From positions 8,210,001 through 8,274,000 of the forward strand of contig NZ_CP139247.1 in the NCBI RefSeq assembly GCF_034087045.1: DNA of 64,000 nucleotides. The letters run 5' to 3'. Made by a program: the position numbers and the translations under genes. The notes beneath the pieces were generated by a model that saw only the letters and a program-made list of their open reading frames with translations, ran no database searches and had not been told where the DNA came from. Of the stretch, positions 524 to 3,694 are shown piece by piece; the stretch's first letter is position 1; every line of letters starts with the position of its first letter. The stretch comes from Chitinophaga sancti (lineage in GTDB: Bacteria > Bacteroidota > Bacteroidia > Chitinophagales > Chitinophagaceae).

Positions 524-556
524 AAAAGGCTGTTCTAAAAGAACAGCCTTTTTTAT
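524..556. terminator. Bidirectional hairpin terminator between pyrD and abi1
   Basis: A 10-bp stem (arms 526-535 and 541-550) is flanked by an A run on the left and a T run on the right. It can end transcription of pyrD on the plus strand and of the convergent Abi gene on the minus strand; the abi stop codon lies inside its T run. Confidence 0.8.
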
Positions 557-1461
557 TGCCACAAATCTTCTTCATCCCAATTTTCCGGAAATCCCATACG
601 TTCCAGGTCAATTCCTCTATATTTTACTAACAACTCCATTAGTTTGTAACTAAAATCATTTCCCGGGCTGGCGGTGTGTAATAGATAGCGAACGATACAT
701 AATTGGTAGTATAATCTTTCACTCTCTACACTTCCAGTTGGAGGTATGTTATTAATCCAGCGTAATTTAACATGTCGTATTTCTCTCGGGAGGAACGAAA
801 ATATTCTGTAGCAAATTAATGAGTGATGGGCACAATAATTTCTAAGCATTGATACAACCTGTATCCATGACTGGAACCATTTGTCTTTAGAAATCCCGTA
901 TACATTAGCTATTATCTTTTTTTCTTTAACATCACTTCGGATATTTCTATAGATCTTGGATAATGTACCGAAAGAAAGTATATGTAATGTTTTCCAGGCT
1001 GGAGGATGTTCATATTTGCTATTTCTTCTATCATGCTGCTTTATGAAGTCTTCATCAGATCGTTCAAGCTCACGATTAATCGTTTCGATTACTTCATTCA
1101 CTCTTTCTTCACTAAAAAATACAGACTTATTTGCAAACCAGTTCGAACCATAAGAGGGGCACATCATATTGATCAGGATTGCACGAAAAGAGACCTCTAT
1201 ACGCTCAATAGCGTCCATTATTAATAGTCGGAGTTCACGATCAAAATTATAGAGTTCAATAACATGATCGAATGAAGTACCAGTCATAAATGTATTACTG
1301 ACTTGGCTTTTCTGTAAATATTTCCAGTAACCTGATAATCTGTAAAATCCTACATGGGTTAAATAATGAATTGACTCATCAGAACTACTAATTATTAAAC
1401 CGCGTTGTTCAAGGATTTTTATTTGGTCTGGTAACGTGAATGGTCTTTCAATGGAATTCAT
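553..1461 (-). CDS. Abi family HEPN protein, copy 1
   Basis: A 302-residue protein of the Abi_2 (AbiD/AbiF-like) family. These are phage-defence or toxin-like proteins with a HEPN fold, expected to act as cytoplasmic RNases. The N-terminal hallmark HYLTHVGFYRLSGYW (32-46), the segment NFDRELRLLIMDAIERIEV (72-90) and the HEPN motif RNYCAH (R207-H212, RX4H) followed by HSLICYR are all present, so the protein looks intact and active. It is about three-quarters identical by eye to a second copy at 2620-3531. The ATG follows directly after the T run of a terminator-like hairpin, leaving no room for a ribosome binding site of its own transcript; expression by read-through from the upstream small-RNA promoter is inferred. 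RNase activity is inferred from the motif only. Confidence 0.85.
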   Translation of the reverse strand: MNSIERPFTLPDQIKILEQRGLIISSSDESIHYLTHVGFYRLSGYWKYLQKSQVSNTFMTGTSFDHVIELYNFDRELRLLIMDAIERIEVSFRAILINMMCPSYGSNWFANKSVFFSEERVNEVIETINRELERSDEDFIKQHDRRNSKYEHPPAWKTLHILSFGTLSKIYRNIRSDVKEKKIIANVYGISKDKWFQSWIQVVSMLRNYCAHHSLICYRIFSFLPREIRHVKLRWINNIPPTGSVESERLYYQLCIVRYLLHTASPGNDFSYKLMELLVKYRGIDLERMGFPENWDEEDLWQ

Positions 1462-1520
1462 ATAAAAAAAATGCCCCGCCTCGGGTGCGCTGATCTAACG
1501 GGAAGCGTGGCGGGTTCTGT
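1462..1520 (-). ncRNA. Small structured RNA, array copy 1 (leader of abi1)
   Basis: On the minus strand a promoter (TTTG at 1558-1555, 21-nt spacer, TATATTTG at 1533-1526) is followed by a GC-rich hairpin: outer stem CCCGCC/GGCGGG (1514-1509 with 1480-1475), inner stem GCGCU-like/AGCG (1504-1507 with 1488-1491), then a run of T ending at the abi ATG. It would give an RNA of about 55-60 nt with an intrinsic terminator. The same element occurs five times in 2.1 kb with exactly conserved promoter spacing. The loop is subtype A, shared with copy 3. The transcript start is estimated, not known. Confidence 0.7.
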
Positions 1521-1668
1521 TAGCACAAATATACTTTCATTTATTCAAAAAAAACAAATTTTCACCTATCTAAAAAAGCATTTTTCATTAATTGATTGCT
1601 ACATTATTTGATTGCTATTATTTTTCTCATCTATACAAAAATCGAACCTTCTTAATTCCTCGATTTTC

Positions 1669-1789
1669 TTCAATCACAACAAACTAAATAACGATTCGTT
1701 TTCTTCGAATCATTTATTATTTAAGCGTGTTTTCTAAGGATTCTAATATGATGAAGTTATAACGTGAATAGTCTTCCAGTGGAGTTCAT
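1669..1789 (-). pseudogene. Decayed 5' stub of an abi gene (array copy 2)
   Basis: Downstream of RNA copy 2 the minus strand begins with a clear remnant of the abi start: the first ten codons read MNSTGRLFTL followed by a stop, against MNSIERPFTL in abi1. Beyond the stop, stretches still align to abi codons about 25-40, for instance the DNA encoding MINDLEETNHYL in abi2. The remaining four-fifths of the gene is gone and the sequence joins a 3' flank shared with the intact copies. Confidence 0.75.
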
Positions 1790-1847
1790 ATAAAAAAATG
1801 CCCCGCCTCTGGTACGCTGATCTTACGAGAAGCGCGGCGGGGACTGT
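1790..1847 (-). ncRNA. Small structured RNA, array copy 2 (orphan)
   Basis: Same architecture as copy 1: TTTG (1885-1882), 21-nt spacer, TATATTTG (1860-1853), GC hairpin and a seven-base T run (1798-1792). The loop is subtype B. It precedes only a degenerate abi stub, yet promoter, stem and terminator are intact, suggesting the RNA is maintained independently of its toxin-like partner. Confidence 0.65.
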
Positions 1848-1997
1848 TAACACAAATATACTTTCATTTATTCAAAAAAAACAAATTTTCAGTTGTCTAA
1901 AAAAGCATTTTTCATTAGTTGATTCCTACATTATTTGATTGCTATTATTATTCTAATCTATACAAAAACAAACCTTCTTAATTCCTCGATTTTCTTC

Positions 1998-2115
1998 AAT
2001 CACAACAAACTAAATAACGATTCGTCTTCTTACGAATCATTTTTATTTAACCGAGCTATATAAGGATTCTAATTTGATGAAGTTATAAGGTAAATAGTCT
2101 TCCAGTGGAGTTCAT
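1998..2115 (-). pseudogene. Decayed 5' stub of an abi gene (array copy 3)
   Basis: The minus strand again starts with ATG and ten codons MNSTGRLFTL then a stop, differing from the copy 2 stub by silent changes (TTC to TTT, ACG to ACC). Further downstream the degenerate match to abi codons 25-40 continues. Most of the gene is missing. The silent changes could reflect chance or selection on a ten-codon reading frame; two copies are too few to tell. Confidence 0.72.
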
Positions 2116-2174
2116 CTAAATAAAATGCCCCGCCTCGGGTGCGCTGATCTGACGGGAAGCGTGGCGGGTTCTGT
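2116..2174 (-). ncRNA. Small structured RNA, array copy 3 (orphan)
   Basis: Promoter TTTG (2212-2209), 21-nt spacer and TATATTTG (2187-2180) are followed by the conserved hairpin (outer stem 2168-2163 with 2134-2129). The loop is subtype A like copy 1. The T run is interrupted, so termination may be weaker. It is followed by an abi stub only. Confidence 0.65.
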
Positions 2175-2321
2175 CAACACAAATATACTATAACCAATAA
2201 GACAAAAACAAATTTTCACCTATCTAAAAAAGCATTTTTCATTAGTTGATTACTACATTATTTGATCGTTATTATTATTCTCATCTAAACAAAAAACTAA
2301 CCACATTAACTCCTCCATTTC

Positions 2322-2396
2322 CATCAATCACACCAAACTATCTAAATATTTTAATTTGCTAAAGCTAAAAGAAAATAGCTTTCCAGTGAAGTTCAT
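2322..2396 (-). pseudogene. Decayed 5' stub of an abi gene (array copy 4)
   Basis: The minus strand begins MNFTGKLF, recognisably the abi N-terminus, but then diverges and stops after 22 codons. It has lost more than the stubs of copies 2 and 3; the segment resembling abi codons 25-40 is mostly deleted. Confidence 0.6.
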
Positions 2397-2454
2397 ATAA
2401 AAAAATGCCCCGCCTGTGGTACGCTGATCTGACGAGAAGCGCGGCGGGTTCTGT
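2397..2454 (-). ncRNA. Small structured RNA, array copy 4 (orphan)
   Basis: Promoter TTTG (2492-2489), 21-nt spacer and TATATTTG (2467-2460); hairpin outer stem 2448-2443 with 2414-2409; T run 2405-2399. Subtype B loop. Followed by an abi stub only. Confidence 0.65.
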
Positions 2455-2619
2455 TAACACAAATATACTATAACCAATAAGACAAAAACAAATTTCCACC
2501 TACCTAAAAAATCAATTTTTAATAATTGATCCCAGTATTATTCAATCGATATTCTCCTTCACATTTTACAAAAACACGACTCTAATCGAACCTTCTACAA
2601 TCAACTATTATAAACTTCA

Positions 2620-3531
2620 TCATTGCCACAAATCTTCCTCATCCCAATTCTCCAAAAATCCCATCTTCTCTAAATCAATCCCTCTATACTTCACCAACAA
2701 TTCCATCAACCTATAACTAAAATCATTCCCCGGACTCGCTGTATGTAACAAATACCTTACAATGCATATCTGATAATACAATTGCTTACTTTCGACTCTA
2801 CTCCCATCAGGAATATTTTTTATCCATGGTAGTTTTGTACGTCGAATCTCCTTAGGACGGGACAAAAACATTCTGTAACAAATCAATGAATGATGCGCAC
2901 AATAATTTCTAAGAATAGACACTACCTGTACCCATGATTGAAGCCATTTCTCCTCAGGAAGCCCATACAAATTTGAAATGATCTTTTTCTCTCTAATATC
3001 GTTCCGAATGTTTCTATAAATCTTGGACAATGTGCCAAAAGAAAGTATCCGCAAAGTCTCCCATGCTGGTGGATGTTCAAATCCACTTTTCTGTTTATCA
3101 TGCTGCTTTATAAATACTTCATCTGATCGCTCAAGCTCGCGGTTGATCGTTTCAATGACACCACTTAATCTTTCTTCACTAAAAAATATAGTTTTATTTG
3201 TAAACCAGTTTGAGCCATAAACAGGACACATCATGTTAATCATGATAGCACGAAAAGATACTTCTATACGCTCTAAAGCGTCTAATAACAATAGCCGGAG
3301 TTCACGATCAAAATTATATAGATCAATAACCTGGTCGAAAGTAGCACCAGAAATAAATGCATTTCGGATATTCTCCTTCTGCAAAAATTGCCAATACTCT
3401 GCCAATCTAAAAAATCCTACATGCGCCAGATAATGATTCGTTTCTTCCAAATCATTTATCATTAAGCCACGTTGTTGAAGAATTTTAATCTGGTCTGGTA
3501 ATAATGGGAATGGTCGTTCAATGGATTTCAT
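2620..3531 (-). CDS. Abi family HEPN protein, copy 2
   Basis: A 303-residue paralogue of the Abi protein at 553-1461 with the same landmarks: HYLAHVGFFRLAEYW (33-47), NFDRELRLLLLDALERIEV and the HEPN RX4H motif RNYCAH (R208-H213). It heads the array in transcriptional order and follows RNA copy 5. Like copy 1 its ATG abuts the T run of the upstream hairpin. The open frame over 900 bases, conserved motifs and mostly conservative differences from copy 1 argue that both are functional. Substrate and activation trigger are unknown. Confidence 0.85.
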   Translation of the reverse strand: MKSIERPFPLLPDQIKILQQRGLMINDLEETNHYLAHVGFFRLAEYWQFLQKENIRNAFISGATFDQVIDLYNFDRELRLLLLDALERIEVSFRAIMINMMCPVYGSNWFTNKTIFFSEERLSGVIETINRELERSDEVFIKQHDKQKSGFEHPPAWETLRILSFGTLSKIYRNIRNDIREKKIISNLYGLPEEKWLQSWVQVVSILRNYCAHHSLICYRMFLSRPKEIRRTKLPWIKNIPDGSRVESKQLYYQICIVRYLLHTASPGNDFSYRLMELLVKYRGIDLEKMGFLENWDEEDLWQ

Positions 3532-3589
3532 AAAAAAAAAATGTCCCGCCTTGGTACGCTGATCTGACGAGAAGCGCGGCGGGTTCTGT
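3532..3589 (-). ncRNA. Small structured RNA, array copy 5 (leader of abi2)
   Basis: Promoter TTTG (3627-3624), 21-nt spacer and TATATTTG (3602-3595); hairpin outer stem 3583-3578 with 3550-3545; T run of ten (3541-3532) directly before the abi2 ATG. Subtype B loop. The most complete terminator of the five copies, placed before an intact gene. Confidence 0.7.
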
Positions 3590-3639
3590 TAACACAAATA
3601 TACACCCATTCTTTAGTCAAAAACAAATTTTTCCCACAA

Positions 3640-3694
3640 AAAAAAAGATATTCTTCAATTTTTAATCAAAAAATTAAAAATTGAAGAATATCTC
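3640..3694 (-). terminator. Strong terminator at the end of the GH127 operon
   Basis: A perfect 20-bp inverted repeat (3647-3666 with 3673-3692, 6-nt loop) is followed on the minus strand by about ten T. It lies 24 bases beyond the GH127 stop codon and separates this operon from the abi array promoter. Confidence 0.85.

Follow-up and report, generated by a model that had tools for sequence, protein, structure and literature searches.

Why should a bacterium keep genes for RNA antitoxins that have no toxin gene behind them? The question is raised by a locus of Chitinophaga sancti (Bacteroidota; assembly GCF_034087045.1, contig NZ_CP139247.1), a genome consisting of a single contig of 8.3 Mb, of which we analysed the 64,000 nucleotides (nt) at positions 8,210,001 to 8,274,000, referred to here as the window and numbered from its first letter. 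The locus contains two genes (A and B) for predicted AbiF-like HEPN proteins and five copies of a small hairpin RNA unit, two of which lead into the genes and three of which – the 'solo' units – do not. AbiF has been described with an RNA partner in PbAbiF (AbiF/AbiFr, PDB 8VZ6; Zilberzwige-Tal et al., via PMC12373285 and PMC12737573, which like the other cited papers are drawn on here in excerpt). Because AbiF with an RNA antitoxin is already published, the core reading of the locus is right but not new; new here is the array, in which three solo RNA units adjoin the decayed starts of toxin genes and which has five and four solos in two sister genomes. We interpret this as a double AbiF toxin/RNA-antitoxin locus with three toxin-less antitoxin RNA genes, probably kept as antitoxins acting in trans.

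A scan of the window with the promoter motif TTTG-N21-TATATTTG gave exactly five matches, all on the minus strand and none elsewhere, against a mean of 0.05 in 100 dinucleotide shuffles of the window, in which five was never reached. One hairpin and a T-run follow each promoter, and the units, repeats of ~280-330 nt with a regular ~328-nt spacing, span positions 1466-3627 in the transcriptional order RNA1 – gene A – RNA2 – RNA3 – RNA4 – RNA5 – gene B (Table 1). RNA1 and RNA5 lead into the two genes, the ATG of which lies at the T-run or a few bases from it, and behind each of RNA2, RNA3 and RNA4 the first ~100 nt of the toxin gene persist in decayed form. An earlier, sequence-only reading of this DNA had described the five-copy minus-strand unit with its promoter, hairpin and T-run, the passage of two copies straight into intact Abi_2 genes with an RX4H motif, and the ATG at the T-run, all of which these results bear out.

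Table 1. Features of the array in order of transcription; fold z compares the single copy with its shuffles, and RF03085 scores are below threshold
Feature	Position in window	Strand	Evidence
Promoter of RNA1	3595..3627	-	TTTG-N21-TATATTTG match
RNA1, abiF-like hairpin RNA and terminator, cognate leader of gene A	3536..3594	-	R1 70.4 bits (in R1 training); RF03085 21.9 bits; fold z -3.20
Gene A, 303-amino-acid AbiF/Abi_2 HEPN protein (predicted)	2620..3531	-	PF07751 E 2.7e-49; PADLOC AbiD; RNYCAH at 208
Promoter of solo RNA2	2460..2492	-	TTTG-N21-TATATTTG match
Solo RNA2	2400..2459	-	R1 61.9 bits (in R1 training); no RF03085 match; fold z -2.46
Decayed toxin-gene start behind RNA2, stop after 22 codons	2296..2396 (lower limit approximate)	-	sequence comparison
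Promoter of solo RNA3	2180..2212	-	TTTG-N21-TATATTTG match
Solo RNA3	2120..2179	-	R1 62.8 bits (not in R1 training); RF03085 21.6 bits; fold z -0.14
Decayed toxin-gene start behind RNA3, stop after 10 codons	2014..2115 (lower limit approximate)	-	sequence comparison
Promoter of solo RNA4	1853..1885	-	TTTG-N21-TATATTTG match
Solo RNA4	1793..1852	-	R1 65.7 bits (not in R1 training); no RF03085 match; fold z -2.80
Decayed toxin-gene start behind RNA4, stop after 10 codons	1688..1789 (lower limit approximate)	-	sequence comparison
Promoter of RNA5	1526..1558	-	TTTG-N21-TATATTTG match
RNA5, cognate leader of gene B	1466..1525	-	R1 66.6 bits (in R1 training); RF03085 21.5 bits; fold z -1.30
Gene B, 302-amino-acid AbiF/Abi_2 HEPN protein (predicted)	553..1461	-	PF07751 E 4.2e-53; 8vz6 E 5.9e-58; PADLOC AbiD; RNYCAH at 207

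Both genes are intact, and judging by a full-length domain (PF07751 covered over profile positions 1-181 of 184 in each) and a single RX4H HEPN RNase motif per protein, they are predicted to encode AbiF/AbiD-F (Abi_2) HEPN proteins. The gene B protein aligns nearly full length, over residues 6-302, with the solved chain 8vz6 ('Abi family protein'), which is PbAbiF with its non-coding RNA (PMC12737573); an NCBIfam search returned no family for either protein. The two proteins are 74% identical to each other. Identity to a sister genome (G014) is 97% for gene B and 82% for gene A, and the ratios of nonsynonymous to synonymous substitution, 0.089 and 0.126 respectively, indicate purifying selection and hence that both genes are kept. 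In the G014 copy of gene B (L021 6386-7288) the conserved LWQ end is missing its final two residues. Elsewhere in the C. sancti genome, 0.7 Mb off, is a further Abi_2 gene (L002), with an RNA at L002 1278-1335, a divergent hairpin of the same plan that is common to L152, L153 and L155.

All five RNAs share one architecture – P1 (CCCGCC/GGCGGG), P2 (CGCU/AGCG), a large loop, a 3′ bulge and a terminal T-run – which matches the consensus of the Rfam abiF family RF03085 in topology (P1, unpaired A, P2, loop, P2′, bulge, P1′) and in its place upstream of an Abi_2 gene. The aligned window copies differ from that consensus in a loop 3 nt longer and a bulge up to 1 nt longer, and RF03085, although the best family for RNA1, RNA3 and RNA5 in ~75-nt slices, scores 21.5-21.9 bits against a gathering cut-off of 37. 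The match surfaced only in slices of ~70-76 nt: Rfam at gathering threshold gave nothing for the whole window, and a run on 4 kb of it gave only matches that were taken as chance. RF03085 matched six of 13 slices from the window and related loci, the three related ones at 25.1, 29.9 and 39.0 bits; the last, from the same order, is the only one of the 13 above the cut-off, and five related-locus slices, one of them cutting into the RNA, were unmatched.

The fold is supported by covariation. In an alignment of 79 RNAs (76 distinct; named sources include Bacteroidota, Chlorobi, Ignavibacterium and Acidobacteria), the share of pairing cells is 92.0% (81.4% when shuffled), the covariation score is 0.294 against 0.121 and was reached in none of 500 shuffles, nine of 11 pairs show changes on both sides, and P2 is among the most conserved parts. 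RNAalifold, applied to 107 matches, predicted nine pairs in the same two helices, seven with double changes. Next to P2, G occurs with U or A with C, the two co-changing, in 17 of 17 copies of the C. sancti array and its two sister arrays. A shape descriptor, written after the first sequences had been seen, reached a score of 26 or higher for the upstream regions of 80 out of 89 Abi_2 genes and for none of 178 shuffles (82 genes and one shuffle at 24 or above); L040 and L053 are doubtful parses among the 80, and in both an RNA was later matched by the RNA model R1. This model (A3, 79 rows) was made from 76 of 78 listed references, two Legionella rows being left out, plus window RNA1, RNA2 and RNA5; loci that the descriptor missed or parsed doubtfully (L036, L040, L043, L053, L069, L098, L106, L010 and L011) or with another parse (L075, L097) had been skipped. 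R1 matches 79 of 80 loci (all but L106), comprising 69 training loci and 10 of the 11 untrained ones.

Within the genus, R1 has 36 matches in 18 of 79 genomes, and Abi_2 matches occur in 23 of the 79. Nineteen of the 36 have an Abi_2 gene, whole or in broken remains, immediately behind them (broken in G359, G045 and G023); the rest are the 12 solos of the three arrays, two additional copies next to a cassette (G365, G361) and three with no Abi_2 nearby (G001, G334 and one in G373). In the reverse direction, 18 of 25 strong Abi_2 matches (at least 96 bits) have an R1 match at the same threshold. The seven without one include G364 gene A, where the RNA is partly masked, four (L002 among them) where a search with filters off gives a divergent hairpin, alike in plan, at 20.7-28.1 bits, and two in G373 that were outside the hairpin check. 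Together with the 8vz6 homology, the abiF fold and the covariation, this linkage supports the proposal of the sequence-only reading that the RNA regulates, or is bound by, the Abi protein.

The array recurs in two sister genomes. G014 has seven RNAs, five of them solo, at the same locus, flanked by pyrD-like and glycoside-hydrolase-like genes (named by eye), and [Flexibacter] sp. ATCC 35208, the closest named array and taken to be that of G364, has four solos; no other cluster of at least three close copies was seen in the R1 match lists for 79, 394 and 395 genomes. Every unit of the three arrays retains its RNA – the regular unit spacing implies that units with a dead RNA have not been overlooked – and 16 of 17 copies have a promoter spacing of 21. 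The toxin-gene starts (~100 nt) behind the 12 solos are decayed: nine have a stop at codon 11, one has its stop at codon 23, and two lack a start.

Over these 12 solos the variable columns number 0 of 20 in the paired positions, 0 of 12 in the promoter boxes, 7 of 20 in loop and bulge, 9 of 21 in the promoter spacer, 60 of 100 in the remnant and 77 of 140 upstream, with Fisher p values of 1.4e-7, 4.7e-5 and 5.7e-7 for paired and promoter-box against remnant and upstream columns; as columns of related copies are not independent, these and the following p values are a guide only, which lessens what they contribute to the case for retention. The upstream contrast is present in each array (window 69/140, G014 63/140, ATCC 35208 64/140, with paired 0/20 each; p 4.5e-6, 1.9e-5 and 1.5e-5 in the same order), and the corresponding remnant values are 46/100, 13/100 and 19/100 (p 2e-5, 0.081 and 0.023). 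Mean pairwise identity is 0.882 in the RNA and 0.667 in the remnant for the window, and 0.928 and 0.910 for ATCC 35208.

Comparison of the sister arrays also shows reciprocal loss of toxins. Gene B of ATCC 35208 is a third toxin, which, compared by identity only, is 74-75% identical to genes A and B of C. sancti. The fifth RNA of ATCC 35208 is a solo whose promoter and hairpin are identical to those of G014 gene B (35/35 and 51/51), with only 71/104 identity in the sequence behind it. Conversely, window RNA4 resembles the RNA of the third toxin in promoter (35/35) and hairpin (49/51), and this toxin is absent from C. sancti; it is absent also from G014, the sixth RNA of which matches at 35/35 and 47/51, a match that leans on promoter and position, another G014 solo being as close or closer in the hairpin. 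Loss of toxins in both directions with the RNA kept indicates that the RNAs outlive their toxins.

From the sequence, fold, linkage and conservation of the units we infer how the locus might operate. Each unit would produce its own RNA of ~55-60 nt from its own promoter, the antitoxin hairpin would double as a terminator, and with the ATG at the T-run, toxin mRNA would arise only by read-through. The RNA would bind its AbiF and thereby block the RNase activity of the HEPN protein, in line with reports on PbAbiF/AbiFr and AbiF-Cd/RCd22, direct RNA-protein neutralisation being reported for relatives only (PMC12373285). A drop in the RNA pool, for example during phage infection, could then release AbiF to cleave RNA and stop growth. 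The solo units may derive from cassettes that lost the body of the toxin gene and then multiplied in tandem, and would have been retained as intact RNA genes, most likely adding antitoxin in trans against the two live toxins. The locus thus suggests that bacteria can retain and multiply RNA antitoxins without toxins.

Comparison with known systems places the locus among AbiF systems and sets the array apart. By homology the window RNAs should behave like RCd22 of Clostridioides difficile, which binds the toxin, mostly terminates before abiF and is active both in cis and in trans (PMC12373285). In both, an RNA with its own promoter lies upstream of an Abi_2 toxin gene with a terminator before the gene; in AbiF-Cd/RCd22, however, two motifs share one RNA and the terminator is separate, whereas here there is one motif per RNA, the predicted antitoxin hairpin itself ends in the T-run, and the extra RNAs are separate units. 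AbiF/AbiFr likewise pairs an AbiF HEPN toxin with an upstream hairpin non-coding RNA, and the excerpts of PMC12373285 and PMC12737573 describe no tandem toxin-less units for it. Type III toxin-antitoxin systems (ToxIN, CptIN; PMC5086642) also have a repeated RNA antitoxin upstream of an endoribonuclease with a terminator between, an arrangement found here by sequence only; but the ToxI repeats lie in one transcript that is cut by the toxin (PMC5086642), whereas this array, rather than tandem repeats under a single promoter, has five separate promoters and T-runs. In the literature searched, which was mostly open-access and without the PbAbiF paper itself, we found no tandem array of toxin-less abiF RNAs; a cyanophage carrying an abiF small RNA has been reported (PMC9964418).

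Several observations weigh against this interpretation of the locus. The remnant contrast is uneven, coming mostly from the window's solos and being weak in G014 and ATCC 35208, and in G014 the mean identity is higher in the remnant (0.931) than in the RNA (0.916). One G014 solo promoter has a spacing of 22, not 21; RNA3 alone is no more stable than its shuffles and RNA5 only slightly more; RNA2 and RNA4 are without an RF03085 match even as ~75-nt slices; and the clean T-run is lost in the G361 tail copy and the G001 orphan. Intact RNAs also occur in genomes with no Pfam Abi_2 match (G307, 73.6 bits; G094, 71.2 bits), so that use against a live AbiF does not follow from an intact hairpin, and the likeness of the copies could also be maintained by gene conversion or recent duplication. 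The solos might accordingly be passive leftovers: after an internal deletion had removed the toxin, unequal crossing-over would have multiplied the remaining ~328 nt, youth or homogenisation would account for the likeness of the copies, and the two cognate RNAs would still work as antitoxins. The differing solo counts among the sister genomes (three, five and four), the codon-11 stop common to most solos, the little-varying remnants of G014 and ATCC 35208, and the toxin-less relics found elsewhere (below) are all in keeping with this. Young or homogenised units would, however, be expected to be alike throughout, yet in each array the upstream columns vary and the paired columns do not, and the RNA and promoter of the lost B cassette are unchanged while the stub behind them has diverged. 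We regard passive persistence as possible, if doubtful, and retention as trans antitoxins as the probable explanation.

Other explanations set the function of the hairpin elsewhere. It could be only a 5′-leader attenuator or terminator by which the level of toxin expression is set in cis, no antitoxin RNA being involved; the T-run at the ATG is as this would have it, and RCd22 acts also in cis via premature termination (PMC12373285), but termination does not require P2, the loop or the 3′ bulge to be conserved, the solos retain the hairpin with no gene behind it, and relatives of the RNA – these alone – are reported as bound antitoxins (PMC12373285, PMC12737573), all of which makes a purely cis-acting role very improbable. 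The solos could instead be a store against addiction, neutralising AbiF toxins of incoming elements and not, or not only, the two residents. In favour of this, one RNA has stayed unaltered where its toxin was lost, although a sister genome still has that toxin alive, and 83 phage records contain AbiF relatives; but none of the 83 reaches 60% identity, no Bacteroidota phage is named in the tally of organisms (nine 'Bacteriophage sp.' records being unassigned), a 1039-base part of the array had no match in the phage collection, and cross-neutralisation of resident toxins is simpler, so that we consider such a store unlikely. Finally, the regular ~328-nt spacing might recall a mobile repeat akin to miniature inverted-repeat transposable elements, or clustered regularly interspaced short palindromic repeats (CRISPR), unrelated to AbiF. 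This we rejected as hardly credible, because R1 at E<=1e-3 finds only the five window copies in the whole genome (the weaker L002 RNA was found separately) and the units carry toxin-gene remnants, not spacers; nor is there a two-HEPN effector beside a spacer-repeat array as in CRISPR-Cas13.

Outside the genus the association of the RNA with Abi_2 is looser. R1 is positive in 38 of 394 genomes of the family and 52 of 395 of the phylum, RF03085 in three of 294 (same family, a different draw from the 394), and the abiF RNA class looks wider in Bacteroidota than RF03085 shows. Among 108 RNA copies outside the genus, a count that left out the genus-searched genomes G000, G009, G045 and G340, 61 have an Abi_2 domain, in some cases broken, 63-186 nt downstream, and 47 have none within 400 nt; Abi_2 is present in 54 of 80 and three of four R1-positive genomes outside the genus. 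A near-exclusive link between RNA and Abi_2, our first reading, was dropped in view of these 47 orphans, and the co-occurrence put forward in the sequence-only reading holds within the genus, where the RNAs run into Abi_2 genes or belong to the solo arrays, and only in part beyond it. In two orphans, L208 and L211, the RNA is an additional copy, with the RNA of a complete cassette following 570-580 nt further on, and AbiF fragments (E below 0.01) lie at seven of the 47, none on the reverse strand.

Some orphans stand before other genes of defence. PADLOC was run on 30 neighbour proteins of the 47; outside this set were L198, L204, L214, L216, L217, L219, L223 and L224, with a candidate open reading frame (ORF), L208 and L211, with AbiF, and L185, L200, L206, L207, L209, L220 and L221, with no candidate ORF, and at L188 and L192 the automatic pick was replaced by another ORF of the same locus. 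Same-strand neighbours starting within 311 nt scored at least 83.9 bits in 12 of 30 cases: REase_I, PDC-M41A, DarT, IetA, AbiLi, HKD+Snf2, PDC-S60, PDC-S09 and four type III methyltransferases, the last of which may be one event. Six matches were weaker, farther or on the opposite strand (L187, L188, L189, L190, L205, L213), 12 neighbours had none, and 15 of the 30 reached 83.9 bits regardless of gene position. An AbiF-less RNA lies directly before a same-strand defence gene at L184, L186, L192, L193, L194, L197, L199, L201, L218, L222, L225 and L227, where the gene kinds also include NACHT/DUF4062 and nucleotidyltransferase, besides type I HsdR and AbiLi-like. A control with ten window genes gave one match at the same score line (109 bits) and a second at 36 bits; since defence genes cluster, the excess at orphan neighbours may reflect neighbourhood alone. 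Judging by what follows them, some orphan RNAs are relics and some precede other defence genes. A broader interpretation, to which we give little credence, is that the array is an archive of RNA antitoxins, kept functional as toxins turn over and protecting against related toxins including those of invaders, and that abiF-type leaders also persist without AbiF, having been taken up before other defence genes (type III methyltransferase, type I HsdR, DarT, IetA and others) as leader regulators or as a guard.

Cas13 is proposed to descend from AbiF and its RNA (PMC12165695, PMC12737573), a connection that the sequence-only reading had named and that is in print (also in PMC12373285), and the behaviour of such an RNA once copied and separated from its protein bears on how a separate guide-RNA array could have originated. 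The three genomes form a natural series of three, four and five solo RNAs beside live toxins, with reciprocal loss, in which cross-neutralisation is directly measurable.

Some minor features were also noted. An AT-rich inverted repeat lies just 5′ of the RNA1 promoter (window 3647-3692), and likewise in the G014 copy. Plasmid records matched window 1462-3640 only in 44-64-base stretches (2-3% of the query) in five records. In a metagenome-assembled genome of Bacteroidales, two tandem RNAs (L097 3656-3722 and 3901-3967) are both followed by a similar toxin-gene-like start, perhaps representing an independent solo unit. Weaker-scoring Abi_2 relatives at L012, L013, L014, L158 and L163 (231 amino acids in L012 and L013) have a hairpin of another kind upstream, which was not seen in L015. 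The exact core of this second hairpin, TTGAATTNCTTCAGGG, is present in L012-L014, with variants recognised by eye in L158 and L163, and the L158 copy has a compensatory change in the stem.

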